Below are positions 6,816-28,858 of a stretch of DNA of 36,864 nucleotides, in pieces. This DNA comes from a virus: positions 1 through 36,864 of the IMG/VR virus record IMGVR_UViG_3300023284_001918. One strand, 5' to 3'. The translations under genes and the position numbers were made by a program. Position 1 is the first letter of the stretch, and each line of letters starts with the position of its first letter. The notes beneath the pieces were generated by a model. That model ran no database searches. It saw only the letters and a program-made list of their open reading frames with translations, and was not told where the DNA came from.

Positions 6816-7610
6816 ATGAAATTTTTATTTTTTGTGTATTTGTTATTTGCGATAGTGTTTGTGCCATTTCCTTCTTTTGCGGGTTTTGAAGGCATTAACG
6901 GAACGACGAGTTTAGGCATTATGAATCGTGTCAAGTGTAGCACAGGTACCACTTGCACCAGAGAAAATAAAGGTGTACTTGTCATTACCGCTTCGCCATC
7001 CGCTTTGACAAGCCCTGTGGTTATAGGCGATGGGACAGCCGCTGACGCAGAGATTAATTACGACGGAAATGCACAAGATTACAATATTTCCTTAGATGAC
7101 TCAACTGATGATTTGGTGATAGGCTTAGGTACAGTACCGGGAACAACCGATTCGATAAGGATCGATGAGAATCAGGATGCTACTTTTGTTCAAGACATTC
7201 TACCTTTGAGTACAATCACTGGTGATGGTGGCGCCGTTATAGTAGGAATGTTAGAAAATGTAATACAGTCTTCTACCGTTAGTACTCTGACGATTGCTCA
7301 GTGTGGCTCGACTGTTTTTGCTGATCAAGCCGATGTAGTTGTATTGCCTGAAGCTTCCACAGCTAAAGGTTGTAGATATACTTTCGTATGCGGAACCACT
7401 AGTGATCTTGATATAGATCCTGCCGATGCTACTGACTTTTTCACTATCACAGGATCTATCACAGGTGCTAATACCACTACTGTCTTAGCACCTTCTGCAG
7501 GTGACGCTTTACGATGCACAGATATTGGGGCAGGTTTTAGTATATTGGCTGTTGCTAACGATGTATGGGCTGTGACAAGCACTAACGGTATTATCACTGA
7601 CGTAAACTAG
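6816..7610 (+). CDS. Secreted-type beta-rich structural protein
   Basis: The 264 residues begin with a clear signal peptide (MKFLFFVYLLFAIVFVPFPS, cleavage likely after SFA at ~22). The region at ~65-115 has the motif GNAQDYNISLDDSTDDLVIG followed by GTTDSIRIDEN. I recognise this from beta-rich fibre or decoration proteins of environmental phages. The C-terminal part is Thr/Ser/Gly-rich and cysteine-containing (FVCGTTSDLDIDPAD), as expected for an extracellular beta-structure. It lies between the portal and the Bbp19-like gene, where cytoplasmic head proteins are expected, so an export signal here is odd. It may decorate the virion or act outside the cytoplasm; which of these is unknown. Confidence 0.6.
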   Translation: MKFLFFVYLLFAIVFVPFPSFAGFEGINGTTSLGIMNRVKCSTGTTCTRENKGVLVITASPSALTSPVVIGDGTAADAEINYDGNAQDYNISLDDSTDDLVIGLGTVPGTTDSIRIDENQDATFVQDILPLSTITGDGGAVIVGMLENVIQSSTVSTLTIAQCGSTVFADQADVVVLPEASTAKGCRYTFVCGTTSDLDIDPADATDFFTITGSITGANTTTVLAPSAGDALRCTDIGAGFSILAVANDVWAVTSTNGIITDVN

Positions 7611-7611
7611 A

Positions 7612-7944
7612 ATGGATTCGCAAGAAGAAACTCAACAAGCTGAAGATAATAGAATAGCTTTAGAACATCGAAAAGTCCTCAATGACATTAGAGCGATCAT
7701 CACTACTAATCCAGGTCGGGACTTTTTCAAATATTTATTCAAAACATTAGACGTGACTGGCCATCCAGAGCCAGGTTTACCTAGAGATGAATTGCTAGAT
7801 AGACTTGGTTGCTTGAGAGCTGGTCGATCAATTTTTAACATAGTATCGCAGGCCAATCCTGAGATTGCCGGTGCTTTAATCGCAGAAAACGAAAAGGAAT
7901 ATCATGCTCAAATTTTATATGAAAATGCTGTTGGACAAGATTAA
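7612..7944 (+). CDS. Bbp19-like phage protein
   Basis: The 110 residues follow the Bbp19 family pattern: DIRAIITTNPGRDFFKYLFK (~25-44; the family has D...L.T..GRR..W.LL), a spacer, then LRAGRSIFNIVSQ (the family's GRR..G..L) and an ENEKE tail. In Bordetella phage BPP-1 the homologue sits in the head gene cluster, and its function is not established to my knowledge. The position between portal and scaffold agrees with that. It starts right after the previous stop and overlaps the scaffold start by 41 bp. No clear Shine-Dalgarno is seen, so translation may depend on coupling. Confidence 0.65.
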   Translation: MDSQEETQQAEDNRIALEHRKVLNDIRAIITTNPGRDFFKYLFKTLDVTGHPEPGLPRDELLDRLGCLRAGRSIFNIVSQANPEIAGALIAENEKEYHAQILYENAVGQD

Positions 7945-8743
7945 TGAAAGTGGTGGAGCTGGAGGAAGCGGATATTCTGCTACTGATGACGGAAAAGGGT
8001 CGGAAGAAACAGCGACTGATAAAACGGATACTCCGTCTGATAAAGAGTCAGAAGACAATCTTGACGAACATGGATATGAAATTCCTAAAGAGGAAGTCAA
8101 AGACGGAGAAGATGACAAGGGAAAAAAAGAAACCGCAGATAAGAAACCCGAAGAAAAATCAGATAAGGAAGTTGAAGATCCCGCTACTGGATACGGTGAA
8201 GAACCGCTTAAGGTAACTGAGAAAAAACCGGATGAGAAGACTGACGATAAAGCCGCTGCAGATGATAAATCTGAAATCGTTTTAGATCTGAAAGGTTTTT
8301 CTGAAGATCAAGCCACTGGCATCAATGAGTTCGTTAAAAATAACAAACTTTCCAAGGAACAATCTGAGGCTTTTGTCGAGTTGCGTAAAAAAGAAATCCA
8401 AGATGCTGAAGCTTTTGCCACAAAAGTCGATGAAGATGCTGTCGAAAACAGCAAGAATATTAGAGCTGGTTGGGATAAAGATTTAAGAAATGACGCAGAC
8501 TTTGGTGGAGATAAGTTTGCCTACAATATTAAGCAAAGCGAAAAGGTTTTGGCTGAGTTTCTTCCTAATACCAAGAAAGCTTTAACAGAATCTAAAGGAA
8601 TGTTACCGCCTTATGTCATGAAAGATCTTGCTACATTAGCTAAAGAACTTTATGGATCTAAAGAGTTGACAAGCGGCGATCCTACAGGAAACAATAAAAC
8701 AGAATCTGAAGGTGATGATGAACTAGACTTTTATAAAATGTAA
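7904..8743 (+). CDS. Scaffolding protein
   Basis: This 279-residue, highly acidic and Lys/Glu/Asp-rich protein lies directly before the major capsid gene, the usual place for the scaffold that guides prohead assembly and is then lost. Residues ~15-120 are low-complexity, with repeated D/E-K blocks. Residues ~125-245 are helical (EIVLDLKGFSEDQATGINEF, then EQSEAFVELRKKEIQDAEAF), and YVMKDLATLAKELYG comes near the end. Podovirus scaffolds share this acidic N-terminal and helical C-terminal composition. ATG 7904 has an AAGGA site; ATGs at 7919 and 7925 are alternatives that would lose up to seven residues. Confidence 0.8.
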   Translation: MLKFYMKMLLDKINESGGAGGSGYSATDDGKGSEETATDKTDTPSDKESEDNLDEHGYEIPKEEVKDGEDDKGKKETADKKPEEKSDKEVEDPATGYGEEPLKVTEKKPDEKTDDKAAADDKSEIVLDLKGFSEDQATGINEFVKNNKLSKEQSEAFVELRKKEIQDAEAFATKVDEDAVENSKNIRAGWDKDLRNDADFGGDKFAYNIKQSEKVLAEFLPNTKKALTESKGMLPPYVMKDLATLAKELYGSKELTSGDPTGNNKTESEGDDELDFYKM

Positions 8744-8790
8744 ACTCATTATCATTGATTATAGTTTGATTTTAAATCTTGGAGGTTTAA

Positions 8791-9816
8791 ATGGCAGCAC
8801 TCGGGACGAAACTCGTTACCTTGGCAGATGTGGCTAAGAGTAAGAATAAAATGATTGGTAAAGTTGCGGAGGTTCTTGTTGAAGAAAATCCAATGCTTAA
8901 TGATATTCCTTATATGGAGATGAATGAAAAGACTATCCATAAAGAGGATATCCGTTCTGCGCTTCCTGCGATTTTTTATCGTAAAGCTAACCAGGCGATA
9001 CCTGCATCTAAAACCACTACTGAAGAACGCACCTTTCAGGCTGCGCACTTTGAGTCTAAATCGCAGATCGACACTCAGGTCGCAATGCGCGGTGGAAAAG
9101 ATCGAATCGCCTATAACAGATGGAATCAGGCACAAGGTCATATCCAAGCTCAGGCTTTGGAACATGCCGATTTGATTATCTACGGATCACCCACAACTTC
9201 AACCTTGAAGACTTCTGGGCTTTTCGATATTTATTCAACTTTAAATACAAGTGAAGAGACATCAAAGCAAATCATTGATGGTGGCGGAACTGGTTCTGAC
9301 AATACTTCACTGCTTCTTATCAATTGGGGCTTTCGTGCAATCTTTGGCGTTTATCCTGCAGGAACTCAAATGGGTCTTAAACGGATCGATCGTTCAAGAG
9401 GGAATACAGAAGTTCAAATCACTGCACTTGATAGTAACGGCGATGCTGGTACTTTCTACGGTTTTGAAGAGCAATTCGAAATCGATCATGGCTTGGTTGT
9501 AAAAGACTTTCGCCAAGGTGTACGGGTTGCAAATATTGATGTTAGCAATCTTCAAACTGGAGCAGGAGCTGCTGATCTTATCGATCTGATGATTTCTGGT
9601 CATTATAAGATTCACAACCCTTCAAACGGTAAAGGTGTTTGGTATGTCAACCGAACGATTGAAGCCTTCTTGCATAAGCAAGCTTTGACTCAGGTCGGAG
9701 CCGGTGCAGGTTTGAGATATGATAACTTTGAAGGTAAGAAAATTCTTATGTTCTTGGGAATCCCTGTTCGACGATCAGATGCATTGTTGAACAACGAATC
9801 ACAAGTAACAACTTAA
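8791..9816 (+). CDS. Major capsid protein (Bbp17-like)
   Basis: This 341-residue shell protein is of the type used by BPP-1-like podoviruses, whose capsid has an HK97-type fold. Recognisable segments are the N-terminal VLVEENPMLNDIPYMEMNE (~28-46), TTEERTFQAAHFESKSQID (~75-94), QALEHADLIIYG near 118-130, and the late KGVWYVNRTIEAFLHKQA and GIPVRRSDALLNNE. The start has a strong GGAGG. A terminator hairpin directly follows the stop. That fits separate, high expression of the capsid gene, though no promoter was clear in the 47 bp before it. Confidence 0.9.
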   Translation: MAALGTKLVTLADVAKSKNKMIGKVAEVLVEENPMLNDIPYMEMNEKTIHKEDIRSALPAIFYRKANQAIPASKTTTEERTFQAAHFESKSQIDTQVAMRGGKDRIAYNRWNQAQGHIQAQALEHADLIIYGSPTTSTLKTSGLFDIYSTLNTSEETSKQIIDGGGTGSDNTSLLLINWGFRAIFGVYPAGTQMGLKRIDRSRGNTEVQITALDSNGDAGTFYGFEEQFEIDHGLVVKDFRQGVRVANIDVSNLQTGAGAADLIDLMISGHYKIHNPSNGKGVWYVNRTIEAFLHKQALTQVGAGAGLRYDNFEGKKILMFLGIPVRRSDALLNNESQVTT

Positions 9817-9820
9817 TTTG

Positions 9821-9854
9821 AAAGGAGGGAAGCTTCATGGCTGCCTCCTTTTTT
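9821..9854 (+). terminator. Intrinsic terminator after the capsid gene
   Basis: AAAGGAGG (9821-9828) pairs perfectly with CCTCCTTT (9844-9851), with extra inner pairing GAAGC/GCT, and a T-run follows. It lies 5 bp after the capsid stop and would reduce read-through into the cement-protein gene. The left arm resembles a Shine-Dalgarno sequence, but no reading frame follows it. Confidence 0.8.
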
Positions 9855-9902
9855 ACAGTTTTATTTTTACGCAAGATTTAAATTTTATTTGGAGGATCTA
9901 CT

Positions 9903-10340
9903 ATGAGATTTGATATTGAAAACCAACTTTCTGTCGAGCAAGCCTTTACAGGTGCAGCGACAGTTTCAACAAACTCTTACCAAAAACAGAGTGCGGTTCA
10001 GGATCTCAGTATCGGTCGTCGAATGGCTCTGTACCTTACACCAACCGTTGCTGCAGGTGCCGGATCAACTCACACCATGGAAGCTATTCAAGCGGATAAC
10101 ACCGCCTTGACTACCAACCTGGAAGTGCTTGCGACAATCACTCTGCTTGCCGCAGCGTTGACCAAGGGTAGTGTTCATGAAATTCCTTACCCTCAAGGGA
10201 CCATGGATCGATTGCATCTTGGATTTCGAAACAGTTCAGCTGGTGGAACCACGACTGTCACTTTGGATGTCTATCTTGTTCCTCAAGATGAGATCGCCGA
10301 ATTCAAATCGTTCCCTAAAGTTGTAGACGCTGACGTATAA
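9903..10340 (+). CDS. Capsid cement/decoration protein (Bbp16-like)
   Basis: The 145 residues match the Bbp16 layout: N-terminal D.EN.LS..QA (DIENQLSVEQAFTG), a central region with Ala-rich strands, IPYPQGTMDRLHLGFRNSS (the family has LP.GTLRYLRL.Y) and a closing VTLDVYLVPQDE. Bbp16 in BPP-1 is the cement protein that sits on the capsid exterior. Its place directly after the major capsid gene agrees. A strong GGAGG precedes ATG 9903. The stop lies within an inverted repeat at 10332-10359. Confidence 0.78.
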   Translation: MRFDIENQLSVEQAFTGAATVSTNSYQKQSAVQDLSIGRRMALYLTPTVAAGAGSTHTMEAIQADNTALTTNLEVLATITLLAAALTKGSVHEIPYPQGTMDRLHLGFRNSSAGGTTTVTLDVYLVPQDEIAEFKSFPKVVDADV

Positions 10341-10370
10341 GTTTAATACCCTATACGTCAAATAGTTTTT
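10332..10370 (+). terminator. Weak terminator-like hairpin over the cement-gene stop
   Basis: GACGTATA (10332-10339) pairs perfectly with TATACGTC (10352-10359) around a 12-nt loop. TTTTTT follows after six bases (10366-10371). The TAA stop overlaps the left arm. Low stem GC and the offset T-run make full termination doubtful, so attenuation or RNA processing is an alternative. Confidence 0.45.
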
Positions 10371-10397
10371 TGGTAGAAATATTTTCCAGGAGATAAA

Positions 10398-10820
10398 ATG
10401 AATAATGATTTTCCATCGGCACAAGGAGTTCCATCAGCTCCTATAGTGCCTCAAGCTGTTGTGCAACCACCTCAACCTACTGTACAAAGTCCCGTCCCCG
10501 TTATACAAGAACAACCAACTCTTATGCAAAGAGTTGTAGATAAGTTGACTCCTCATCAAGGTTTGCCCGCTCAACCGATTGCTTCCAATCAACAACGTGT
10601 GGCTCCAGTAAAGAGTCCATCAATGATTCAGGTTGTTGCTTTGGAAAAAGGGTTTTATAATCAACAAAGAATCAATCCAGGCGAGAAGTTTTTGGTTAAA
10701 GACATGAAGGGCTTGGGCAAGTGGATGAGATGTGTTAATCCTGAGATCCAAAAAGTTCATGAAGAAGCCATGAAGATAAAAAGAGAAAACATAGTAAAGT
10801 CAGCGAAGATTCTTAAATAG
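10398..10820 (+). CDS. Pro/Gln-rich head-module protein with a conserved C-terminal domain
   Basis: The 140 residues split in two. Positions 1-70 are low complexity, rich in Pro, Gln and Val. Positions ~75-115 form a compact domain: MIQVVALEKGFYNQQRINPG, then EKFLVKDMKGLGKWMRCVNP. A similar domain (V...A...GFY....R.PG..F.V......G.WM) recurs in phages just downstream of capsid genes; I do not know its function. AGGAG lies upstream of the ATG. Position between the cement and tail-tube genes suggests a minor head or head-tail joining role. Confidence 0.65.
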   Translation: MNNDFPSAQGVPSAPIVPQAVVQPPQPTVQSPVPVIQEQPTLMQRVVDKLTPHQGLPAQPIASNQQRVAPVKSPSMIQVVALEKGFYNQQRINPGEKFLVKDMKGLGKWMRCVNPEIQKVHEEAMKIKRENIVKSAKILK

Positions 10821-10844
10821 TCTCGCTGAAGATAGGCGGGAAAA

Positions 10845-11459
10845 GTGTACTCAAAAGAAAAGATTTTCAATATTGCCTTGAGTGCACTTTTGTTGAATCG
10901 TCAAGTCACCAGTGCTCAGACCGATCAGTCAAATGAATCGAAAGTTTTACTCCAACATTATGATATAGCTTTCAATTCAACGTTGACTGATATGGAACTT
11001 GACTCTACCTCTGAGTGTCTTATTTTAGCTCTTATTGAAGCGGACCCTAATGATAAATGGCTTTACTCTTATGAGTATCCTGTTAGGTGCGCTCACCTTC
11101 GTAGAATTGATTCCGGCGCAAAAATCGACGATAGGTCTACTCACATTTCTAAAATCGTGACACAAAATAAAGGTAGAAAAGTAATCTTCACTGATGAAGT
11201 GGATGCTGTCGCCGATTGTGTAGTGAACGATTTTCCTTTAAATAGTCTGAGCGCGAATGCTGGTTTGGCAATTGCTTATCGTCTTGCAATTTTGTCATCT
11301 TCTTTAATAACCGGTAAAGGTGCGAAAAAGTTAAAAGAGAAAATTGAGCGAGACTATGTGATTGCTAAAACTGAAGCTCAGGAAAAAGATCGACTTGAAA
11401 ATTTCAATTACGTGGACGAAGAGACAGAATCTGAGTTTGTGCAAGAAAGACTTTCATAA
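10845..11459 (+). CDS. Tail tubular protein A-like (T7 gp11-type adaptor)
   Basis: This 204-residue protein probably forms the ring joining portal and tail nozzle. It follows the gp11-type pattern: an N-terminal helix with IFNIALSALL, a middle with LLQHYDIAFNSTLTDMEL, then the hallmark KWLYSYEYPVRCAHLRRI near residues ~70-90 (the family has W.YAY.YP.DCLR.RR), strands, and a final helix with AYRLAILSSSLITGKG. The start is GTG with a G-rich ribosome site inside a short hairpin (10822-10839). Its stop overlaps the next start. Order portal, capsid, adaptor, nozzle is standard. Confidence 0.75.
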   Translation: MYSKEKIFNIALSALLLNRQVTSAQTDQSNESKVLLQHYDIAFNSTLTDMELDSTSECLILALIEADPNDKWLYSYEYPVRCAHLRRIDSGAKIDDRSTHISKIVTQNKGRKVIFTDEVDAVADCVVNDFPLNSLSANAGLAIAYRLAILSSSLITGKGAKKLKEKIERDYVIAKTEAQEKDRLENFNYVDEETESEFVQERLS

Positions 11460-13903
11460 TGGGATTAAAAACTCATTCAGCCTTTTCTACTGGTGAATTA
11501 GATACTCGACTACAAGAGAGAGTCACTCTACAAAAATATGCTTTAGGTTTAAAAACAGGTAGAAATATATCGATCACAAAAGCCGGTACTGTAATTGACA
11601 GACCTGCAACAAAGAATATTGTTCAAACCAAATTAAGCAATCGTGAAGTTTTGGTTTATGCGACAAAAGATACTGATAATTTCATAGAGTTAGGTAATTT
11701 GTATTGTAGACTTTACGCTGAAGACGGCACTCTGTTGGATGATCAAGTTACCGTTATTGCCGAAGCTGATTTACCAAATATTCAATTCGTTCCTGATGGT
11801 GGTAATGTCTTTATATTGAATGGCGGCTCCCCTCTTATAAAAATAACCATTGACGGAGTTTTGCTGAATATAGTTACAGCTTTAAATTTCTATAGGACTT
11901 ACACAGGAGTTCAAACTACAACTGTTGTTGGAGTCGGTACACCTACTGGTTATAATGTAGAATATAAAAGCTCTGTTTTTAAGCCAACGACTTTGGATGC
12001 CCTTGACGGTGGAGAGTCTTTACCAACTAACCCCTCAACTAGTGTTCCTTTACCGATACTTGCTGGTGAGAGCAACACTGTCACAGCAACTCGCCCTGGA
12101 GGTGAAGACGACGCCACTGAAGCGCGTATATATAGAAGACCCACTGCAGGTGGAGCTTTTGGTTTAATTGGTACTACTACTAAATTTACAATTGGTGGCG
12201 GCGGTGAACAAATTTTCACTTTTGATGACGTAGGTGGAGAGGCAGATTTTAGTAATCAGCCAATAGAGCCAGCAGTTGATTTTATATTAGGTTTTCCATC
12301 TCACCCTGAAGATTTAGATCCTTCAACTGGTGTTATGTATCAACAACGTTTTATTCACAACAGCACTCTCACTGACGATTTTTCTTTATATGCATCAAGA
12401 ACAGCTTTGATTAATAATTTCTTTAGAGATATTCCTTTAACTCCCGATTCCTCTTTGAGATTCAAGCCAAGTGTGACGTCTGGTGGTAAAATATTACGAC
12501 TTTTAATTGCTGACGGTTTGATAGCTTTCACCAAGGATGGGATATTTGTACACTCAGGGACTTTAGATACTAGTAATTTGTCGATGATAAAAAGAGGAGG
12601 GTTTGTCATCAAAGAATCATTAGCTCCTCTTATTATTGCTGACTCTATATTCTTTGTAGACAGATTTAACATTGTAAGAAAATTAACTTTCTCTGACGAA
12701 TTGCGAACTTATCGATCAGAGGATATAACTATCTTTAGTGATCAACTGTTTCGTAACAAAGTGATAACTTCTTGGGGTTTTCAAGACGGAACATTACCTC
12801 TGCTTTGGGTAGTGTTTGACGACGGTACAGGCGCATCTCTTACTTACGATCGCGAACATGAGATGAGAGCTTGGACAAGACATGATAGACATACTGTCAG
12901 TTACGAAAGTGTAACAGAGACCGGTTCTGATTATGTTTTGTTTGTTGTAAAAAACGGAACTGATCGTTTCATAGAACGATCTATCTCTCGTGAGTCGTTG
13001 GCTTCAGAAATAGTAACTAATCGTGAAATTGATAAAGGACCGTCGATCGCAGCTATGGATTCCATAGTTTCTTTTGATACCAGATTCACTCTTGCCGGTA
13101 GTGATGTATTTTTGATCGTACCTGTCACCCCTACAGTATTTGATGGACCTTTAACTTTGACATGTGGAACATCTGCACTTTTCCCAGATCCAGGCGCAGG
13201 AGAAGTTGGTAAAATTTATAGATATTTCGGACCAAATGGAGCGGCTGTAGATTTAACGGTTACAGCGAGAGCTAGTGATAACGAAGTCACTGTATCACCT
13301 TCCGCCACTTTTCCGTCGACTGACCTCACAGGTTTTAATTTATTTTTACCAATAGGAACTTTCACAGGACTTGCTCATTTGAACGGCGAATCTGTATCAG
13401 TAATAGTTGACGGTTTTATACACTCTTCACCTTTAAATGATATAGTGGATTATCCTGTTTCAACACCTTCAGGTGGAAGTTTAACTTTAGCTGACGGAAG
13501 ACTTGGAGCCCTTGTTCATATTGGTCGACCTATTATAAGTGATACAGAAACTTTAGATATCAATACAGTTGAGCAGTCGCCAACTCTCATCGAGTCTAAG
13601 ACGATCGATATATTGTATATTAAAATTCACGAGAGTCGCACTCTTTTTATCGGTGCTGAATTTCCGGCTGACGATAAAGTAAAAGGAATGGAGCCTTTGA
13701 ATAAAATTAATTATGATCATAGTTCGTCTCAACCCATCATCGGTAATAGATATTTACCTCCTAGAACAGTAAGAGAGGAATTGACCCTTCCGGGCAATTA
13801 TGATACACAGGGAAGAGTTGCTATAAGACAGGTTGACCCTTTACATTTTGAAATTCTTTCGGTTATCCCAGACGTAGAAGTTTTAAAGAGGAGCGATAGA
13901 TAA
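11459..13903 (+). CDS. Tail tubular protein B-like (T7 gp12-type nozzle)
   Basis: The 814 residues match podovirus nozzle proteins. The N-terminus FSTGELDTRLQERVTLQKYA (~9-28) is the family's G.LSP.L.GR.D...Y, followed by AGTVIDRPATKN (usually GG...RPGT). Downstream are many beta-propeller-like repeats and an RFIHNSTLTDDFSLYASRT segment. A domain at ~560-640 is Ig-like or carbohydrate-binding in character. The hexameric nozzle closes the tail and carries the fibres. Overlapping ATGs join it to genes on both sides (TAATG at 11459 and 13903). Confidence 0.85.
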   Translation: MGLKTHSAFSTGELDTRLQERVTLQKYALGLKTGRNISITKAGTVIDRPATKNIVQTKLSNREVLVYATKDTDNFIELGNLYCRLYAEDGTLLDDQVTVIAEADLPNIQFVPDGGNVFILNGGSPLIKITIDGVLLNIVTALNFYRTYTGVQTTTVVGVGTPTGYNVEYKSSVFKPTTLDALDGGESLPTNPSTSVPLPILAGESNTVTATRPGGEDDATEARIYRRPTAGGAFGLIGTTTKFTIGGGGEQIFTFDDVGGEADFSNQPIEPAVDFILGFPSHPEDLDPSTGVMYQQRFIHNSTLTDDFSLYASRTALINNFFRDIPLTPDSSLRFKPSVTSGGKILRLLIADGLIAFTKDGIFVHSGTLDTSNLSMIKRGGFVIKESLAPLIIADSIFFVDRFNIVRKLTFSDELRTYRSEDITIFSDQLFRNKVITSWGFQDGTLPLLWVVFDDGTGASLTYDREHEMRAWTRHDRHTVSYESVTETGSDYVLFVVKNGTDRFIERSISRESLASEIVTNREIDKGPSIAAMDSIVSFDTRFTLAGSDVFLIVPVTPTVFDGPLTLTCGTSALFPDPGAGEVGKIYRYFGPNGAAVDLTVTARASDNEVTVSPSATFPSTDLTGFNLFLPIGTFTGLAHLNGESVSVIVDGFIHSSPLNDIVDYPVSTPSGGSLTLADGRLGALVHIGRPIISDTETLDINTVEQSPTLIESKTIDILYIKIHESRTLFIGAEFPADDKVKGMEPLNKINYDHSSSQPIIGNRYLPPRTVREELTLPGNYDTQGRVAIRQVDPLHFEILSVIPDVEVLKRSDR

Positions 13904-14406
13904 TGGCACTTAAAGTCGCAAGCTTAGCAGCTTTACAATTTCTTTCCTCAGTTAGACAAGGCGAGAACGTTCGTCGTAATGCAAAGTTCGGTGAAGAATT
14001 CAATGAAATAAATGCTCAGTTTGCTGAGGTAGATGCGATTGAAGCAGAGAAGTTTGGATTTACTCAGATAGCTCGATATCAAACTGTCATCGATAAAACT
14101 TTAGGTGCTCAAAAAGTCGGTTTCGCTGCACAAGGAGTCGATGTAGGTTTTGGAACCGCTGCTATAATTCAAAAAGAAGCTCGCATAACAGGAACTTTAA
14201 ATAAAATTGACATTGAACAACAAGCTCGAGAGAGGTCCCTTGGTTTCAAACGTGAGGCGAGATCTTTACGTCTTCGTGGTGCATTAGGCGTAGGAGTAGC
14301 TGAGTCAAGAGCAGGTGCTATAAGAACTCAGGGAGCCATAGCAGCTATTACAACTGGTATCAGTGGTTATAATAGGTCTTCGTCAAATACTACAGAGGAG
14401 ACTTAA
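13903..14406 (+). CDS. Internal virion protein B-like (T7 gp14-type)
   Basis: The 167 residues are Ala/Gly-rich and helical, with an N-terminal AALQFLSSVRQGENVRRNAK and a middle containing AAQGVDVGFGTAAIIQKEAR. These resemble gp14-like internal core proteins, which have G..A..G..FG.GS...V in this position. In T7, gp14 is ejected first and forms the outer-membrane part of the DNA channel. The assignment rests on composition, length and above all its place before two longer ejection-type proteins, as in T7 (14, 15, 16). Confidence 0.6.
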   Translation: MALKVASLAALQFLSSVRQGENVRRNAKFGEEFNEINAQFAEVDAIEAEKFGFTQIARYQTVIDKTLGAQKVGFAAQGVDVGFGTAAIIQKEARITGTLNKIDIEQQARERSLGFKREARSLRLRGALGVGVAESRAGAIRTQGAIAAITTGISGYNRSSSNTTEET

Positions 14407-14408
14407 TC

Positions 14409-22200: not shown

Positions 22201-22282
22201 AACAGTTGGTGCAGTAAAGGATTTTTTAGTTAAAAAAGTAGCTCAAGGTCGTAAATTACTTGAGGAGTCTGAGGGTAATTGA
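16223..22282 (+). CDS. Giant internal virion protein with C-terminal transglycosylase
   Basis: This 2019-residue protein is probably the T7 gp16 counterpart, ejected to span the envelope and open peptidoglycan. Residues ~170-230 hold a Gly/Ala-rich hydrophobic region (IIAAFTGAGAVAGAFAG and on), with a second near 305-325, fit for membrane insertion. The middle is helical. Residues ~1865-2000 form a lytic-transglycosylase-like domain: IIKMIESGGNQWA with catalytic Glu1874 expected, then STAAGLYQFLESTWADI. In T7 gp16 the transglycosylase is N-terminal; here it is at the C-terminal end. The long helical regions resemble polyvalent phage virion proteins. It is by far the largest gene and takes about a sixth of the window. 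Confidence 0.8.
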   Translation: MPNVDELVDLSTSTPEDAAKNIDNSNVFNMQPDEYKNYSEDLDVEAQKLTVESEVQPVVKDYMAQSTEHSSLSIPDLDSMSYIERQIKLIHDHVFDRPTIERDIIELNLRKMDNPEAFGSEDEMTLGRLNDERQSLAERNYGLDGPIEQLPAQVAGQVVEFGKGLARNADIIAAFTGAGAVAGAFAGSIFPGVGTLVGATAVGTQGLIAGVTAASFKDGYDAMVGSTYNELSNITDDDGNPIEIDNETKANISRGVGVVSGVMTALVGRTIAKTTPFLSKLISPRLAKQIVLSPTTEAIKVTLNGIGKAVAAGGLAGGSIEVSRILAEEMGRTYDGTEASFLNALASASTKIDQYAERVATAAVVSGLAAGTIATTTGAIGFKATKSRFKSAHDEAVRGARDVTPETPLALTEQGGVPEGRLVNTDLIQSGQTPIGQSVKVLQFQDAMMNVSKVSKATNMNNIAPAQLTSFKQMVFAATGLKNIWVNVEDLRKFATDETRGAAARNIIDESGVAASQFNAPVKIPSHQFMELIREFPDASDVMKLSPEGPNSDQARAYLESLKGAADQRREILAKLGAGEITRAESVAQQKALAPVELETDVFNEPEYLLQPTFTEAIESVISGKEVEKFNNAQLDARQRVVDSIDEAARFEMDQVRSVVAEAATESQVEIETQRIVDDPFVEYVDRFTIPEKAQFIPSDRRPVQDPDSMAADLTAPHHKKGFSPFAIDPRTLPPKLKKFEKNAQLKKHKVFVKGGITADESARLIGSNSGENLLKLLSTTPSRQEIIDGQVTLRTKEVNDLAKANVDLNQTSLAKAYNDNTANHIKEMRFMREKSWPATKTGIKRIALPLPKINDLRVRATAGIAQTLVGELNVNQFKVGERKSQRMAINNILKNEVEQAFMNKEAAALNSEFAKQTHIAIGRVNKVIKFAKRFNKPAVIQELKDAGKSYTKAVNEILDVFNLNPSRKGLSEVESYEKYVRARIAEGEANFEIPDRMSGITQSVNDMTTEAVILIGDRLKAVLHQARFKNKLHRKFKEKELIQTEEAIAQAGHELAVQHPDYDPNRIPSTQVERDVPRQVTGIISTMQSLLNNMEHIVLTLDKEELGGFWHELIVKPIKGDGEFNKVYGESNVTEDVSALKKFFEKNIEAYGKKDYLKLENTVVVVPEFDGIKALNGGRLSKGDLLVMMAYGGDPDGFTRRLNFGVSNEVINKVLERELEVRDAVFVQNFMLNGINSYKERTQKLQRDTTGQDVDFIEPKSFTHRGKVYPGGYFPLAYKVDLDLETINSTLKSINQKTAAVFGGADAEIFTRQYAAEMTKQGRLEERTGSDKPLDLSMLRITRSYEEIIHDLNFRIPVRDGLKLLRNPTIKADITSMIGPEKYGVIVNTYIETANRVAAENANYFSDQNRFIKATFGNLQSGFAVSVLGANLTSTGVQFVSLAQAVQKMGIVNGSKHMLNALRKISGNMHSLKEFYDFAAEINPSIKNVMEGVDANITSTIHDLLPSRNIHPALAPVERARKMMVTATMSPLVYADQIIKVLTANAAYEQFISGDVKNFPTVKLVKMSENERHQKAIDYARQISRTTLTHTTKGDKAPIQKLPLASLFVNFWNDLRNVFNGILSQGRQTKWKAKASYEDMRNGNFKGAASNAAGSTSALMTMVIVSTLSKVYIDLLRGKDIPSPDDFDFTTQEGQQEAAGEFAKYMLTSTPEIFAETIPGVRDIKFAADRESARDVRNVQIPIVKQLSDFSTSYAALKDLLEFDSDKELTKQQLKALLFSSAYLTGGWPVNASFKAKRFAEDNEVVQDFIGKGTALLLSDQINEYVEQKAGSNVPEDFLKQLKDIETELRPSDPDSVNKLIPEDTTAIIKMIESGGNQWAKNPNSTAAGLYQFLESTWADIMARAPDLGLTVNGRVSGDTAQQEKAMNWFTENNASQLIENKVPIVDETLYGAHFFGAEQYIEIHNSNRNVKLKTILPAKVLKANPQLSGLKTVGAVKDFLVKKVAQGRKLLEESEGN

Positions 22283-22319
22283 AGTTGACAAATAATGCAA
22301 GACCAAGAAGGATAAAAGT

Positions 22320-23549
22320 ATGTCTCGTTCAACGTTCGCACCTGTACATAAGTTCACCGGCACTGGTTCGCTGGATACCTATGTATTTGCGTTTAAGATA
22401 GAAGAATTAAAACAACTCTTAGTCATTGAATATGACATTGCAGGAGTTGAAACACAACGTGTTCGTGGAACAGATATCACCTATTTAAGCGGTGTTGTAT
22501 TCGACGCTGTAGATGGTGGCGGAACTGTTACTCTGGCTGCTAACTTAGTACTTAATCGAACTCTTTACCTCATTCTGGCAAACGATGAACCTACGCAGCC
22601 AAATCTGTTCAAAGAGCATTTTGACTTCACTTTGGAGAAAATAGAACTTGCTTTGGATCAGGTCAGCGGAGCCACCCAAAGTTTACAATTCTACATGATT
22701 CGCACGATTAAACTCGACGAAAATGATGATGAAACAGCTTTCAATATGAATATGCCGATAGATGCGGCTGGCAATCCTGACGCTACTCTCGCAATTAATG
22801 ACGCTGGTACTGGGTTTAAGTTTGGTCCCACAGGAGCTTCGATTGCCGCTAATACGGCAGCAGCGGCGGCAAGTGCGGCAGCAGCGGCAATCAGTGAGAC
22901 CAATGCAGGAGCTAGTGAGAACGCTGCATCAGCAAGCGAGACGGCGGCTGGAGTTAGTGAGAATAACGCAGCAACCAGTGAGACCAATGCGGCAACCAGT
23001 GAGACCAATGCGGCAACCAGTGAGACCAATGCTGGAGTTAGTGAGAATAACGCAGCAACCAGTGAGACCAATGCTGGAGCTAGTGAGAATAACGCTGCAA
23101 CCAGTGCAGCAGCAGCTCTCGTCAGTGAAAATGCGGCAGCGGCAAGTGCAGCAGCAGCGGCGTTAGATGTTACACCTTTGACTAAGCTTACATTCACTCA
23201 TACTCAGTTTCAGGCAGCGGCATTAACCAAAGAGATAGTAGCCTTCGCCTTACCAATGTTAACATCACTTGAAAAGTTAGTATTGGTAGTTGATACACAA
23301 TTTGTCATCGGTGGCGGTGGCACTTCATATAAAATTCATGTAGGTATTAGCGGCGATAATAAAAAATATGTTTCTCAATTCGACGCGCTTCAAGTTGACG
23401 GATCGTTTGAACCATTCACCATGTCAGAAATAGAATCTTTAACTGGTGCAGTGAATGTTGAAATTCAAGCTGAGTCGGATGTAAATTTAGATAATTCATC
23501 GGCAGGTAGTATTGACCTGCATCACGGGACAATTTTACTAGGAAGTTAA
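22320..23549 (+). CDS. Tail fibre protein with T7-gp17-type base and heptad shaft
   Basis: Residues 1-145 resemble the T7 gp17 N-terminal tail-attachment domain (FTGTGSLDTYVFAFKIEELK, then ITYLSGVVFDAVDGGGTVTL, and RTLYLILANDEP). Residues ~175-285 are an Ala/Ser/Asn shaft of heptads (SETNAAT, SENNAAT types) that would make a trimeric coiled coil; it is encoded by 21-bp tandem repeats. The C-terminal ~125 residues are a beta-rich knob with VEIQAESDVNLDNSS and IDLHHGTILLG. This knob is short and unlike the following S74 fibre, so receptor binding may be shared between proteins. AAGGA precedes the ATG. Confidence 0.82.
   Translation: MSRSTFAPVHKFTGTGSLDTYVFAFKIEELKQLLVIEYDIAGVETQRVRGTDITYLSGVVFDAVDGGGTVTLAANLVLNRTLYLILANDEPTQPNLFKEHFDFTLEKIELALDQVSGATQSLQFYMIRTIKLDENDDETAFNMNMPIDAAGNPDATLAINDAGTGFKFGPTGASIAANTAAAAASAAAAAISETNAGASENAASASETAAGVSENNAATSETNAATSETNAATSETNAGVSENNAATSETNAGASENNAATSAAAALVSENAAAASAAAAALDVTPLTKLTFTHTQFQAAALTKEIVAFALPMLTSLEKLVLVVDTQFVIGGGGTSYKIHVGISGDNKKYVSQFDALQVDGSFEPFTMSEIESLTGAVNVEIQAESDVNLDNSSAGSIDLHHGTILLGS
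22929..23117 (+). repeat. 21-bp tandem repeats coding the fibre shaft
   Basis: Units of 21 bp run in frame as seven-residue blocks. One type begins GCAACCAGTGAGACC and is identical over its full length at 22971 and 22992, with one final-base change at 23013 and 23055. The other begins GGAG(T/C)TAGTGAGAATAA and is found at 22950, 23034 and 23076. The two types alternate after three copies of the first. Near-identical DNA, including synonymous positions, points to recent copying or recombination that could change shaft length. Confidence 0.85.
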
Positions 23550-23550
23550 T

Positions 23551-25344
23551 ATGAAATTTTTAATTCTATCATTATTTTTACTTACTCAAATAGTATCGGC
23601 ATCAACGTCCGGTCCTTATGATCGTTTAGTTCTTAGACCTAGTACACCTCCTACTAGTTGTCGAGACGGTCTATTTGTTGTTGATTCAGGTGACAGTAAT
23701 AAATTTAAGAAATGTCAATCTGGTGTATTTGCGACAATCGGTGAATCTGGCATAATATCAGAAACAGGTAGTCCAACTTTAAATTTTATAGATTTAGATA
23801 CTACCGACGATGACGTATCAGCAAAGATAATTGTAAATTGTACGGATCTCGGAAGTGGAACTGAAGATTGCGATCTAAATATAACCCATCAGGTTGCTGG
23901 TTCTGATGTTATCAAGCTAACTTTTGATGCCTCAGAGAATCTAAGTATTTTCAATGATGTGTCTGGAGCTAAAGTAACGTTTCCAACAGAGAATCAGGCG
24001 ATAGTGTTTGGTACAACTAACTTAGTAAGTGGTATAGGTTCTACCGATGGTGAAACAATTAAGGTTTATTCATCTGGCGGCAATAAATTTCAAGCCACAC
24101 CAAACGGGACTCAATTCTTAGATTCCATACAGGCTATAGTTACAGGGACAACCAGTAACGTATCAATCGCTATTGGTAGAGCTAACACCAATGATAATGA
24201 CAATGGATTCATGTCAAGCGCAATCAATGAAATTCAACTCATAAACGGCGGCAGTGAGACCGTAGAGTTTGACTCTACGTCTGTAGATTTTACTGTTCCA
24301 ATAATAGCTCCTGCAGGTTTAGTCGGAACACCTTCAATTTCTTTTGTATCAGATACTAATACTGGGATATTCAACAACAGTGCAGGGATGATTCAGTTCA
24401 CATCAGACGGGACAGAAGCGTTTAGAATACTCTCCACGCAGATTACACCTCTTAAAACAGTTAGAGGTATAGTTGGTACTAAAACGATTCCAACCTATAG
24501 TTTCGACGGAGACACCGACACCGGAATTTACAATAACGGCGCAGGACAGCTGAGATTCACTTCAAATGATACGAGCACTCTTGATATAAACAGTGTTAGT
24601 GTATTACCAAGAGTTGTTGTCAGAGGTGTAGCTGGAGCACAAGCAGCTCCAGCATATAGTTTCGACACCGATACTGATAGCGGTATGTGGAGCGAAGGCG
24701 CAAATGCGGTAGCAATAGGAGCAGGTAATACCCGAGCTGTAACAATGAACAGCACCGCGTTTATACCGAGACTTCCCGTTAGAGGTACGGCAGGGACAGT
24801 AAGTCTACCAGCATATAGTTTCGATACCGACACCGACACAGGTATATTTTCTGATACAGCCGATCAATTAGAACTCGCCACAGGTGGAACAACAGTTGCG
24901 TTTATCGATGCCAGTCAAGACTTTTTCTTGCCAGTGATATCAAACACCACAGCACAAATTAATCTACAGATTGATGCATCAACCGGATTGGTAACTAAAC
25001 TGACATCAAGTGCGAGATATAAAAAGAACATTAAAGACTCAACAATTGACAGTTCAAGGATTTATAATTTAAGAGTTGTGGAATATGATTATAGAAGTGA
25101 TGGCAGTCATGACTTTGGCTTGATCGCTGAAGAGGTGATTGTTGAAGTCCCTGAATTAGTTATAAAAGCTGACGATCCAGAGACCGAGAGCAAAGAACTT
25201 GTACCGGAAGCTGTCAAGTACGGTCAGCTTCCTTTACTTATCCTTCAGGAGTTAAAGAAAATAAGAAAAAGAGTTGAACATTTAGAAAAAGAAAACATAG
25301 AATTAAAAAATATAATTGATTATCAACACGCGGAAGGTTTTTAA
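23551..25344 (+). CDS. Fibre-like protein with signal peptide and S74 chaperone
   Basis: The 597 residues start with a signal peptide (MKFLILSLFLLTQIVSA, cleavage near 17) and a cysteine-bearing N-terminal region (SCRDGLFVVDSGDSNKFKKC). Four copies of a ~50-53-residue repeat follow (residues ~257-465), each with a YSFDTDTDTGIF-type core. At ~490-560 is an intramolecular chaperone of endosialidase (peptidase S74) domain: SSARYKKNIKDS, then RVVEYDYRSDGSHDFGLIAE, then VPEAVKYGQLPLLILQELKK. A coiled coil ends it. S74 domains trimerise the fibre and then cut themselves off; the Ser after the TKLTS run is the expected cleavage site. An export signal on a phage fibre is unusual. Confidence 0.85.
   Translation: MKFLILSLFLLTQIVSASTSGPYDRLVLRPSTPPTSCRDGLFVVDSGDSNKFKKCQSGVFATIGESGIISETGSPTLNFIDLDTTDDDVSAKIIVNCTDLGSGTEDCDLNITHQVAGSDVIKLTFDASENLSIFNDVSGAKVTFPTENQAIVFGTTNLVSGIGSTDGETIKVYSSGGNKFQATPNGTQFLDSIQAIVTGTTSNVSIAIGRANTNDNDNGFMSSAINEIQLINGGSETVEFDSTSVDFTVPIIAPAGLVGTPSISFVSDTNTGIFNNSAGMIQFTSDGTEAFRILSTQITPLKTVRGIVGTKTIPTYSFDGDTDTGIYNNGAGQLRFTSNDTSTLDINSVSVLPRVVVRGVAGAQAAPAYSFDTDTDSGMWSEGANAVAIGAGNTRAVTMNSTAFIPRLPVRGTAGTVSLPAYSFDTDTDTGIFSDTADQLELATGGTTVAFIDASQDFFLPVISNTTAQINLQIDASTGLVTKLTSSARYKKNIKDSTIDSSRIYNLRVVEYDYRSDGSHDFGLIAEEVIVEVPELVIKADDPETESKELVPEAVKYGQLPLLILQELKKIRKRVEHLEKENIELKNIIDYQHAEGF
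24319..24945 (+). repeat. Four 50-53-residue repeats in the S74 fibre
   Basis: Four consecutive units (50, 53, 53 and 53 residues) share G(T/A)...P.YSF..DTDTGI....A..L.......T....................VRG. Units two to four keep 159-nt spacing and strong DNA similarity around the YSFDTDTD core. This is a beta-rich fibre-shaft repeat; copy number may vary between relatives. Confidence 0.75.
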
Positions 25345-25345
25345 A

Positions 25346-25678
25346 ATGAAATTATTATTAGTATTTGTAATGTTTATGTTTTGTGCTCCTGTTCACTCTG
25401 CTCTGCAGATGTCACACGAATCCAAGCAAAGGGTTACAGCATCTTATTGGGTAATTGGTGAGGTTGTTTTAAGCCCTAAGAAAAAAGAGATGCAAGTACA
25501 AATGTGTCTTTACGTTGATGAGGCGGCAATGAATTCAGGAGCTGAACATTTAAAATGTAAATGGCAAATATTTGGTGAAACAGCATTCAACACTATATCG
25601 GGTTTAATTTTTCCAGGTATTGAAACGAGAATTAAAAACCATGCTTCGAAGTTTTTTGAAAATGCAACCAGTCCTTAA
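25346..25678 (+). CDS. Small exported protein, unknown function
   Basis: The 110 residues have a signal peptide (MKLLLVFVMFMFCAPVHSA, cleavage around 18-19). The mature part contains two Cys (QMCLYVDEAAM and LKCKWQIFGE) that could form a disulfide, and a C-terminal amphipathic helix. No family is recognised. The ATG at 25346 has GGAAGG 8 bp upstream and lies two bases after the fibre stop; an in-frame upstream ATG would overlap the fibre gene and mask the signal peptide. Periplasmic function in lysis or at the virion surface is possible. Confidence 0.6.
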   Translation: MKLLLVFVMFMFCAPVHSALQMSHESKQRVTASYWVIGEVVLSPKKKEMQVQMCLYVDEAAMNSGAEHLKCKWQIFGETAFNTISGLIFPGIETRIKNHASKFFENATSP

Positions 25679-25688
25679 AGGATGAGAA

Positions 25689-25988
25689 ATGAAGGCGAAA
25701 GCTGTTGAGATATCTAAGAAGTTTTGGAGAGAGGCAGTAGTTTCTCTTTTTGGCATTGGTTTAACCGCTTTCATTGCTAACGCTAATAATAATCTAGCAA
25801 CTAAAATCGAAGGCAATCATAAATTAGCAATGTCAGAGATCGACAACAAGGTTGCACTACTTCAGCAGCAAAATATTATGCAAGCCAAAATAGTACAGAT
25901 CCAAAATAAAAATACTCAGGTTCACATGTTACGTCTTGTGAAAATGATAGATACGCTCGAACAGCGATTTAACAAAAGAGAAAACTAA
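25689..25988 (+). CDS. Single-TM coiled-coil protein, spanin- or holin-like
   Basis: The 99 residues have a basic N-terminus, one hydrophobic segment (AVVSLFGIGLTAFIANA, ~16-32) and a long C-terminal coiled coil (~40-95). That is the topology of an inner-membrane spanin (Rz-like), with the coiled coil in the periplasm. A holin-type or antiholin role cannot be excluded. A partner outer-membrane lipoprotein with a proper lipobox is not obvious nearby; the small exported proteins at 25346 and 27009 are weak candidates. An AAGGATGAG site precedes the ATG. Confidence 0.5.
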   Translation: MKAKAVEISKKFWREAVVSLFGIGLTAFIANANNNLATKIEGNHKLAMSEIDNKVALLQQQNIMQAKIVQIQNKNTQVHMLRLVKMIDTLEQRFNKREN

Positions 25989-25998
25989 GGAGGTCAAT

Positions 25999-26994
25999 AT
26001 GAGACATATAATCCTTATAATAATTTTAACATTTATGCAATTTGCCTCAGCACAATCATTGATTGAGGCTGCAAAAAGAGGAAAACCTACCTTCATCGAG
26101 AATCATACTCGAAAAATATATACTGAAACTATAGGTAATAACATATTCATAGGCGAAGTGGTTGATCAATTATCTTTAGAGACCGACTCGGTTTGGCGAC
26201 TGAAAAGAAAGAATACTGCCGGACCACTCGTGATTGAAGAATACGCCGACTCTGGAAAATTTAATCAACAGTGGTCAAATAGGGGTAGCGCATTTCCACC
26301 TGTCCCTTTTGCAAATCATTTTTCTGTCATATTCGATGGTATCAATGACTTTGTAGATATTACTAATGATTCAAGTTTAGATTTTGGTACATTGGTTGCC
26401 TTCTCGTTGAACGTTTGGGTCAAGTCAACAAGTACGAATCAAACTTATATAGAAAAACAAGTTGCCGGTGTAGGCTGGGAATTTCGAACAATAAGTAATA
26501 AATTAAGATTTGAACATGTAGGTGCTGGCGGAGCATTGCGAGTAGATTCAACTTCAGACGTTGGTCAAAACGACGGTAGTTGGCACATGGTTAGTGCAAC
26601 ATATGATGGCTCAGGTAATGCAAGTGGGGCTATTCTTTATTTTGACGGAGCAGCTGTTGCCAAGACTACAATAGACGACAGTCTGTCTGGTTCTACTTTA
26701 ACAGCTGGTGATATAGCAATAGGTTCATCGACTGATGGGGCCGCCACTAATTTTACAGGTAATATAGATGAAGTGTCAGTATGGAGTAGAGACTTGACAG
26801 CAGGTGAAATAACAACCATTTATAATAGCGGTACTCCCGCTGACGTTAATATTCAAGTGACGACAAATTTAGTTTCTTTTTGGCGAATGGGAGATCAAGA
26901 TGCTTTCCCTGCGCTGTTAGATAATAAAGGTAGTAATGACGGTACCATGACCAATATGGTCGCTGGTGACATAGTTCTAGATACCGCTCCATAA
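25999..26994 (+). CDS. Exported LamG/concanavalin-like protein
   Basis: The 331 residues start with a signal peptide (MRHIILIIILTFMQFASA). An N-terminal region of ~90 residues is followed by a laminin-G/concanavalin A-like jelly roll at ~105-325: YSV-type strand HFSVIFDGINDFVDI, FSLNVWVKSTS, SWHMVSATYDGSG, ILYFDGAAVA, then FTGNIDEVSVWSRDLTAGEI and the late LVSFWRMGD. All core signatures of the LamG_3 family are present. Such domains bind glycans, so a host-surface adhesin or fibre-tip role is likely. AAGGAGG gives a very strong ribosome site. Confidence 0.8.
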   Translation: MRHIILIIILTFMQFASAQSLIEAAKRGKPTFIENHTRKIYTETIGNNIFIGEVVDQLSLETDSVWRLKRKNTAGPLVIEEYADSGKFNQQWSNRGSAFPPVPFANHFSVIFDGINDFVDITNDSSLDFGTLVAFSLNVWVKSTSTNQTYIEKQVAGVGWEFRTISNKLRFEHVGAGGALRVDSTSDVGQNDGSWHMVSATYDGSGNASGAILYFDGAAVAKTTIDDSLSGSTLTAGDIAIGSSTDGAATNFTGNIDEVSVWSRDLTAGEITTIYNSGTPADVNIQVTTNLVSFWRMGDQDAFPALLDNKGSNDGTMTNMVAGDIVLDTAP

Positions 26995-27008
26995 AAAGGA
27001 AATTAACG

Positions 27009-27299
27009 ATGAAGACTATAGTAATTCTATTTTGCATTCTATTCTGTACCTGTGCCAACTCTTCAATACATCATGGAAAATTCCCTGACCGCACAGTTTT
27101 TATGCTGATCCAGGATGCCAGCGTTACGCAGGCGATGGTCAATCATAGTACATCATTAAGTAAAGCAGCGATGCCATTAAATAGTAGCACTGATGATAGA
27201 ATGTTGGAGACCGGCGTACCTGTGGATTCTATTTATGACGCATATACTTGGTTGACTTTAAAAGAAGCACGAGCAGAATTATTAAATGTTGGATGGTAA
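27009..27299 (+). CDS. Small exported protein, unknown function
   Basis: The 96 residues begin with a signal peptide (MKTIVILFCILFCTCANSS). The Cys residues near its end are not in a convincing lipobox, so lipoprotein processing is doubtful. The mature part is short, with VPVDSIYDAYTWLTLKEARA near the C-terminus. That resembles a short phage motif (P.SI..Y...T..EA...L....W), seen in other phages without known function. An AAAAGGA site precedes the ATG. It is co-directional with the LamG gene, 14 bp apart. Confidence 0.5.
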   Translation: MKTIVILFCILFCTCANSSIHHGKFPDRTVFMLIQDASVTQAMVNHSTSLSKAAMPLNSSTDDRMLETGVPVDSIYDAYTWLTLKEARAELLNVGW

Positions 27300-27318
27300 A
27301 ATTTCACAAGGAGTAAAG

Positions 27319-28158
27319 ATGAAAAAGTTTAGCGCAATTTTAATTAGTATTTTAATAGGAGTCATCATTCCTAAAGTTTCTTTTGCGGAACTTTACGATA
27401 GTGTAAACAGTATTGTAAATAAAATAGAAGAAGAACGTTTCAAAGGCAGTGTTGTCTATGTTCACATTCATGGCAAGAATCCTGATGTTGATGCGGCTGA
27501 AGATCTTATACCTGCTGGAGGCAATTATGTAGGCTTTCCTGGCGGTAGCGGTGAACTCTTTGAAGTGTTTTCTTCTGATGCTGCCGATGCTTCGGCTGGT
27601 ACTGGTGTTCAAACTATTCGGGTTTTCTACTGTGACGATGACAAAGTTTGTTTTGATAGTTCGGGTAATTTTTTAAGTTTTGATATTACAATGAATGGGG
27701 TCACTGGTGTTGATTCACTTGTATCAGGCCGTAGAGTTTGGCATGTTGAATGCTTAACCACTGGTTCCGGCACTGTGAACGCTGGCACCATTACAGTTAG
27801 AAATAAAACCACTACCGCAAATATTTTTTCAGTCATGCAAATTGGTAAATGTGTTTCACAAGAAGCCGTTTTCACAATACCTTCTGGTTATAAGGGTTAT
27901 TTAGAAAAGCTGACAGCATCGATGACAGACACTAGTGCTAACCGAGCTGTTCTTGCTTTCACAGAACAGCTCGACAACGGTACTGTGAAAACAGATGAAG
28001 AATTAACTGTCGGTACAGGATTTTCTAATCATCCTCCCAGGTATGGAGGTTTCATGTTTGCATCAAAGTCTGATATAAAAATAAGAGCTTTAGAAGTCAC
28101 AAACGCCAACGGAGTTATTCACGCCTCTTACAGAGTTAGACTGGTAAAGCAACCATAA
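27319..28158 (+). CDS. Exported beta-rich protein of the fibre cluster
   Basis: The ~279 residues begin with a signal peptide (MKKFSAILISILIGVIIPKV, cleavage after SFA). The mature protein is beta-rich with several Cys. The C-terminal half has FTIPSGYKGYLEKLTASMTD and a strand series ending ASYRVRLVKQP. The IP.GY.GY pattern is common in jelly-roll proteins beside phage fibre genes, for which I know no proven function. ATG 27319 is chosen because AAGGAG lies 5 bp upstream and because it exposes the signal peptide; an earlier ATG at 27286 adds residues that would bury it. Confidence 0.65.
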   Translation: MKKFSAILISILIGVIIPKVSFAELYDSVNSIVNKIEEERFKGSVVYVHIHGKNPDVDAAEDLIPAGGNYVGFPGGSGELFEVFSSDAADASAGTGVQTIRVFYCDDDKVCFDSSGNFLSFDITMNGVTGVDSLVSGRRVWHVECLTTGSGTVNAGTITVRNKTTTANIFSVMQIGKCVSQEAVFTIPSGYKGYLEKLTASMTDTSANRAVLAFTEQLDNGTVKTDEELTVGTGFSNHPPRYGGFMFASKSDIKIRALEVTNANGVIHASYRVRLVKQP

Positions 28159-28256: not shown

Positions 28257-28442
28257 ATGGGAAACTTATTTAACAAGAAAATGCTGAAATCTAAAACTTT
28301 CTGGTTGGCACTTATACCTATTCTCGGACCATTGTTTCCGGCGTTTGCTCCGTTACTGCAAGAGCCTATTCTAACTGCCATATTTGGAGCCGTAATGGTT
28401 GGTGTAAGAGCCGCAACTACCAAGCCAGTGTCTGAAAAATAA
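28257..28442 (+). CDS. Small membrane protein, candidate holin
   Basis: The 61 residues have a basic N-terminus and two hydrophobic stretches, FWLALIPILGPLFPAFAPLL (~18-37) and ILTAIFGAVMVGVRAA (~41-56), then a polar basic tail. Two short spans and a place immediately before the endolysin (stop and start share TAATG) fit a class II holin, which would release or activate the endolysin. AAAGGAG precedes ATG 28257. An ATG at 28233 in frame would extend it without a site. Function is inferred from topology and context. Confidence 0.55.
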   Translation: MGNLFNKKMLKSKTFWLALIPILGPLFPAFAPLLQEPILTAIFGAVMVGVRAATTKPVSEK

Positions 28443-28858
28443 TGACTCAAAGAGTTAAAGATCTTATTGATTACGCTAAACGGTTCACAGCTATTCCGTA
28501 CAAGTGGAGCGGTAATCATCCTTGCGAAGGCTTGGACTGTTCTGGGTTCATGTGCATCCTGCTACGGCGTGAAGGGATCTTAAGTTGGAACGAAGATCTT
28601 TCATCCAGGGCAATTTTTCAACGTCTGAGAGAGGAGCATGGTACGTCAGAGGTAAAGCCAGGATCATTCTTATTCTTTGGTAGAGATCGCATCACTCATA
28701 TAGCTATGGCTGTATCAGAGACTCATATGATCGAGGCTGGTGGCGGCGGCAAAGATACTGTGACTTTAAAGAGAGCTGTCGAGCGTAGAGCATTTATCAG
28801 AGAAATGCCAATAGCCTCTCGGTCAGACTTCCGAGAGGCTTGTTTCGTTTTGGATTAA
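28442..28858 (+). CDS. Endolysin, NlpC/P60 family peptidase
   Basis: This 138-residue single-domain enzyme would cleave peptide bonds in peptidoglycan at lysis. The catalytic Cys is in GLDCSGF (Cys33), the His in ITHIAMAV (His86), and the third residue is expected around ETHMIEAG (~93-100). There is no signal peptide or SAR segment, so it depends on a holin; the candidate lies directly upstream. The last ~15 codons form a perfect terminator stem. It ends at the convergence point with the leftward operon, overlapping the final gene there by 4 bp. Confidence 0.88.
   Translation: MTQRVKDLIDYAKRFTAIPYKWSGNHPCEGLDCSGFMCILLRREGILSWNEDLSSRAIFQRLREEHGTSEVKPGSFLFFGRDRITHIAMAVSETHMIEAGGGGKDTVTLKRAVERRAFIREMPIASRSDFREACFVLD
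28813..28851 (+). terminator. Strong terminator inside the endolysin 3' coding region
   Basis: AGCCTCTCGG (28813-28822) and CCGAGAGGCT (28831-28840) form a perfect 10-bp GC-rich stem with an 8-nt loop, followed by TGTTTCGTTTT. It ends the rightward late transcript where it meets the leftward operon. It lies wholly within codons for the last residues of the endolysin, so the protein sequence is constrained by the hairpin. Confidence 0.85.

Follow-up and report, generated by a model that had tools for sequence, protein, structure and literature searches.

Export of a receptor-binding fibre and of a protein of the head module through the Sec pathway is strongly supported by sequence features in a group of BPP-1-type podoviruses. 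We analysed an IMG/VR virus contig of 36,864 bases, called the window, together with its relatives. In the best explanation, which we consider somewhat probable, the periplasm is where the fibre and a head spike mature, and both are added to the virion when the cell lyses. What we regard as new here is an export signal, conserved and yet switchable, on phage fibres that are otherwise ordinary. The literature, in the part covered, yielded no report of signal-peptide-bearing receptor-binding fibres in tailed phages, which is a weak negative. If true, such a signal on a receptor-binding fibre means a second assembly compartment, with consequences for fibre folding, for the exchange of receptor specificity and for the laboratory production of such fibres.

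Signal-peptide genes of the window

The window carries, in order, a terminase, a GNAT gene, a portal (PHROG 332), a scaffold, a capsid (PHROG 212), a Bbp16-like protein, tail and ejection proteins and a tail-fibre adaptor. Its portal, capsid, tail and ejection genes are homologous to those of BPP-1 and stand in the same order. An earlier note had listed six open reading frames with typical signal peptides; their coordinates and classical Sec signal peptides (SP) are confirmed (Table 1). All six have an ATG start with a ribosome-binding-like sequence upstream. By our own rule they appear to fit the pattern of Sec and SPase I substrates, with a positive n-region, a hydrophobic core and small residues at -3 and -1. 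The rule-based caller accepted five of the six at the annotated start. The SP of 27319 fails the strict rule through a lysine in its c-region and is classical by eye.

Table 1. Signal-peptide genes of the window and neighbouring genes (a slash separates the SP from the mature start)
Feature	Coordinates	Strand	SP	N-terminus	Remarks
Head-module SP gene, 264 aa, between portal and scaffold	6816..7610	+	6816-6881 (22 aa)	MKFLFFVYLLFAIVFVPFPSFA / GFEG	Mature start GFEGINGTT; three cysteine pairs
Tail-fibre adaptor, 409 aa, bbp9 position	22320..23549	+	without SP		
S74 fibre, 597 aa, position of BPP-1 Mtd	23551..25344	+	23551-23601 (17 aa)	MKFLILSLFLLTQIVSA / STSG	PF13884, PHROG tail fibre matches, BPP-1 synteny
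Small SP protein, 110 aa	25346..25678	+	25346-25399	MKLLLVFVMFMFCAPVHS / ALQM	Weak PHROG 5084 match
99-aa protein, N-terminal hydrophobic stretch and coiled-coil-like tail	25689..25988	+			Sequence only
LamG-domain protein, 331 aa	25999..26994	+	25999-26052 (18 aa)	MRHIILIIILTFMQFASA / QSLI	PF13385, E 1e-19
Small SP protein, 96 aa	27009..27299	+	27009-27062	MKTIVILFCILFCTCANS / SIHH	
PHROG 8198 family protein, 279 aa	27319..28158	+	27319-27387 (23 aa)	MKKFSAILISILIGVIIPKVSFA / ELYD	
NlpC/P60 protein, probable endolysin	28442..28858	+			PF00877

The structural features that had been ascribed to four of the proteins hold in part. Pfam supports the S74 domain of 23551 and the LamG domain of 25999, and 6816 ends in a phage spike fold. 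The jelly-roll of 27319 is not upheld: its model reaches a pLDDT of 56, and the protein belongs to PHROG 8198. Homologues in this family occur with and without SP (the window gene, L044:1751-2605, L041:8101-8793 and L048:14379-15089). The products of 25346, 25999 and 27009 need not be virion members. The 99-aa protein, with no significant family match in PHROG or Pfam, is by its sequence a possible inner-membrane lysis protein.

The S74 fibre 23551 matches PF13884 with 40.6 bits against a cut-off of 22, and with 36.3 bits in a second search. At the S74 catalytic motif SDxxxK it reads SARYKK by eye, so that the serine and lysine are kept and the aspartate is replaced by alanine. By synteny with BPP-1, its place directly after a bbp9-type adaptor is the Mtd position. 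Mtd, the receptor-binding protein of BPP-1, is encoded immediately downstream of the adaptor bbp9 and is marked by a C-type-lectin fold and a diversity-generating retroelement. At the same position, 23551 carries an S74 domain instead. No close relatives of 23551 and 27319 were confirmed among viral contigs, and no named phage was found to match 23551, the expanded head protein described below or the adaptor. A PDB sequence search gave no match for 23551 and none that was convincing for the head gene.

The C-terminal domain of 6816 (residues 144-259) resembles the capsid spike of Pseudomonas phage Pa223 (9ny6; Z 10.8, 2.4 A over 96 residues, 15% identity) and also matches phage tailspike and baseplate domains. 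This fold is compatible with a part of the virion, but it is a common phage spike domain that occurs too in tailspikes and in T4 gp9. In one relative, the head SP protein has grown to 651 aa (L009:5220-7175). The shaft segment of the window protein matches this long version several times, so the shaft is apparently internally repeated.

Conservation of the export signal among relatives

Relatives were collected by a capsid scan (26 viral contigs) and an adaptor scan (21 contigs). SPs were called by a fixed rule of our own, based on charge, hydrophobic core and the -3/-1 site, and not by SignalP; the rule detected 15 of 19 textbook signal peptides. On four related control phages (BPP-1, epsilon15, DC33 and MW202640), it called 6 of 187 CDS. 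All six were short (49-160 aa), and no virion structural protein was among them. The record of one control, Limnohabitans phage DC33 (L095, PQ492659.1), gives Inoviridae, and its gene content is that of a BPP-1-type podovirus.

Among the relatives, an SP was called on the head gene in 24/24 cases, on the gene directly after the adaptor in 17/20 and on the adaptor itself in 0/20. Ten other virion and packaging families gave 2 calls in 204, both borderline and of the bbp14 type. The contrast between the head and fibre genes and the control families is very large; since the homologues are related, the counts are not independent events and the p-values are optimistic. Among the phages whose contigs were readable at both ends, 15 have the SP head gene together with the SP fibre, and two (G009 and G011) have neither.

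The head gene shows how this signal has been maintained. About 25 contigs carry, between the portal and the next head gene, an SP followed by the conserved mature start GF.G.NGTT.L...N.I.CSTGLTC, and G041 keeps a shortened version of the gene. The SP letters have a mean identity of 33%, as against 48% for the first 30 mature residues, and the SP is kept throughout. It is 18-23 aa long. Alanine stands at -1 in 24/24 sequences, with a small or aliphatic residue at -3. The junction was found by an alanine-based pattern, so the -1 alanine is partly there by construction; yet an alanine lies at the domain boundary in every sequence. An SP that diverges yet is kept, together with alanine at the junction, is the pattern that a functional, cleaved signal would leave.

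The cysteines of the mature head protein point to the compartment in which it may fold. Their number is 6, 4 or 2 in 24/24 homologues and is never odd. In the alignment, no homologue has just one cysteine of the pair FVCGT/RCTD: both are there or both are missing. A second pair behaves likewise, save in the poorly aligned row L091. Cysteines that appear and vanish two at a time would most simply form disulphides, which would require an oxidising compartment. The capsid, scaffold, adaptor and large ejection proteins of the window have no cysteine. Because the cysteine counts of the fibres are not always even, the case for disulphides is drawn from the head gene.

Probable fibre attachment and a proposed model of assembly

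The relatives include fibres that share one N-terminal domain, GIPL.TNF.V..ALPI.DR, with and without an export signal. The domain lies behind an SP in G041 and G043, and it starts at the initiator methionine in G009 and G011. The SP is exactly prepended, as the mature starts align with the SP-less homologues, and the type of the adaptor C-terminal domain is identical in all four phages. The domain is homologous to gp60/gp61 of Cellulophaga phage phi18:1, which are structural by MS/MS according to the record; unlike the SP fibres of the group, gp60/gp61 have no SP and belong to a different phage type. The SP-less fibre of G009 is nested in the SP clade (100/100). Together with the tail proteins of Bdellovibrio phage phi1402, which are annotated as such and have no SP, this fibre indicates that export is not obligatory. 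In L054, L101 and L102 (CALMFT010000023.1), which represent a complete phage of the group, one SP-less GIPL fibre is followed by one SP fibre.

Across 19 adaptor-fibre pairs, the C-terminus of the adaptor co-varies with the mature N-terminus of the fibre (Mantel r 0.77, p 5e-5, a value that kinship makes optimistic), whereas the adaptor N-terminus does not co-vary with the fibre (r 0.11, p 0.09). Linkage of adjacent DNA may contribute partly to this matching, and adaptor and fibre types are mismatched in G044. The adaptor and fibre ends of the window match no other pair, so their link would rest on position and analogy. A tandem of two adaptor and SP-fibre pairs with differing domain types is found at L048:5281-10232 (G007). 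From the GIPL domain with and without SP and from the co-variation with the adaptor, we infer that the exported fibre is probably a part of the virion.

In the textbook account, tailed phages assemble wholly in the cytoplasm. In our model, the capsid, tail and adaptor fibres would be built there as usual, and the distal receptor-binding fibre and the head-spike-like protein would enter the Sec pathway. The signal peptide would be removed after export, disulphides would form in the periplasm, as the paired cysteines of the head gene suggest, and the exported proteins would presumably trimerise there. Once lysis breaches the inner membrane, the fibre would bind the adaptor's C-terminal domain by its mature N-terminus, and the spike would attach to the virion. 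The likely gains would be disulphide formation and receptor-binding ends kept away from cytoplasmic glycans. The model draws on the SPs, their exact prepending to a virion fibre domain, the adaptor-fibre matching and the paired cysteines; SP cleavage, docking at lysis and the benefit are the parts that we infer. The meeting of periplasmic fibres and virions within a short lysis window is a difficulty that the model leaves unexplained. The options of the earlier note included attachment to the virion beyond the inner membrane as the cell lyses, and this is the best supported of them, the mature N-terminus of the relatives' exported fibre being a virion-attachment domain matched to the adaptor.

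A less likely but still serious reading is that the proteins are exported and never join the virion, and that they serve receptor masking, phage exclusion or adhesion from within the periplasm or at the infected cell's surface. It gains from the adhesive MAT fibres of Bdellovibrio, which are exported, S74-bearing and surface-displayed (PMC10769870). The window is also predicted to export a LamG protein and others, and fibre tips of the relatives gave a match to C1q and a weak one to a CBM. Such an envelope role explains the SP but not the matching of the mature fibre N-terminus to the adaptor, nor does it account for virion proteins in which the same domain lacks an SP. By eye, the C-termini have no common outer-membrane anchor, and the genes lie in the late structural module, with the fibre at the receptor-binding position.

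It is improbable that the hydrophobic N-termini stay uncleaved and hold the fibre to a membrane or within the particle. The length of some hydrophobic stretches would suit an anchor, and the earlier note had allowed for one in the particle. This option is disfavoured by the alanine at -1 and the small or aliphatic residue at -3 in all 24 head genes, by an SP length of 18-23 aa and by mature starts that align with SP-less versions of the fibre domain. We give almost no credence to chance, misassigned start codons or a mobile accessory module in one phage as the source of the signals. In the control families a few borderline sequences were indeed called, the two of the bbp14 type, but the trait occurs in dozens of contigs, with an SD mostly at the SP start, and these families lie far below the head and fibre genes in their rate of calls. 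Maturation in the periplasm followed by docking at lysis remains our preferred explanation.

Hosts and comparison with known systems

The host of the group is likely to be a diderm. The NlpC/P60 gene of the window gives no host signal. Capsid relatives are present in two MAG contigs. A patescibacterial host was considered from L054 (a MAG of ~1.3 Mb; the 16S of its relatives looked patescibacterial by our own reading) and is not supported: the whole contig is phage and therefore carries no host evidence. G009 encodes a 259-aa SP protein, lysozyme-like by eye (L043:10470-11249, IMGVR_UViG_3300019758_000010), which among 50,697 phage records matches only the Bdellovibrio phages phi1422, phi1402 and MAC3UK. 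It is absent from 11/11 other relatives tested and is a possible host marker.

The cultured Bdellovibrio phage phi1422 (NC_019525) has the same arrangement, in which the tail fibre gp67 without SP is followed by gp68 (614 aa) with SP. Its gp75 is a 170-aa SP protein, and 0/55 of the upstream CDS checked were called. Weak similarity connects gp67 to adaptors of the group, with the best match in the C-terminal part of one of them; gp68 is likewise weakly similar to the group's SP fibres. Unlike the window, phi1422 is a myovirus of another group, and its gp68 is annotated as hypothetical. The annotated tail-fibre genes of three sister phages of phi1422, from Aeromonas, Pectobacterium and Vibrio (the Vibrio record read to base 43,000), have no SP. 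The SP-less tail proteins of phi1402 count against a strict host rule. The earlier note had raised a predatory host as an idea. The phi1422 arrangement and the G009 gene common only to Bdellovibrio phages give it circumstantial support for the group, for whose host the Bdellovibrio lineage offers the best lead, and a good one; for the window's own host it is a lead at most. The idea is testable now, because phi1422 is in culture and has the pattern.

The genome plan of the window is that of BPP-1 (Rauchvirus, bbp26-bbp8), from terminase, GNAT, portal, scaffold and capsid through bbp16, tail and ejection genes to the bbp9 adaptor and the receptor-binding gene. Unlike in the window, no virion gene of BPP-1 received an SP call, and the stretch from portal to scaffold lacks an SP gene. 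We tentatively suggest that a tailed-phage lineage, probably of Bdellovibrio-like predators, may divide its assembly between two compartments. Receptor-binding fibres and head spikes would be exported, become oxidised in the periplasm and reach the particle no sooner than at lysis. On this view the MAT fibres could be domesticated copies of such secreted fibres. This would offer predatory bacteria a simple route to secreted phage-like fibres.

The MAT fibres of Bdellovibrio bacteriovorus are phage-like proteins displayed on the surface after export, with S74 or other adhesive tips, and they share a conserved beta-rich domain of ~130 aa right after the SP (PMC10769870). The likeness of 23551 to them covers two features, a signal peptide and a fibre with an adhesive tip. 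MAT fibres are Bdellovibrio's own, whereas the window fibre is phage-encoded and occupies the receptor-binding slot after an adaptor.
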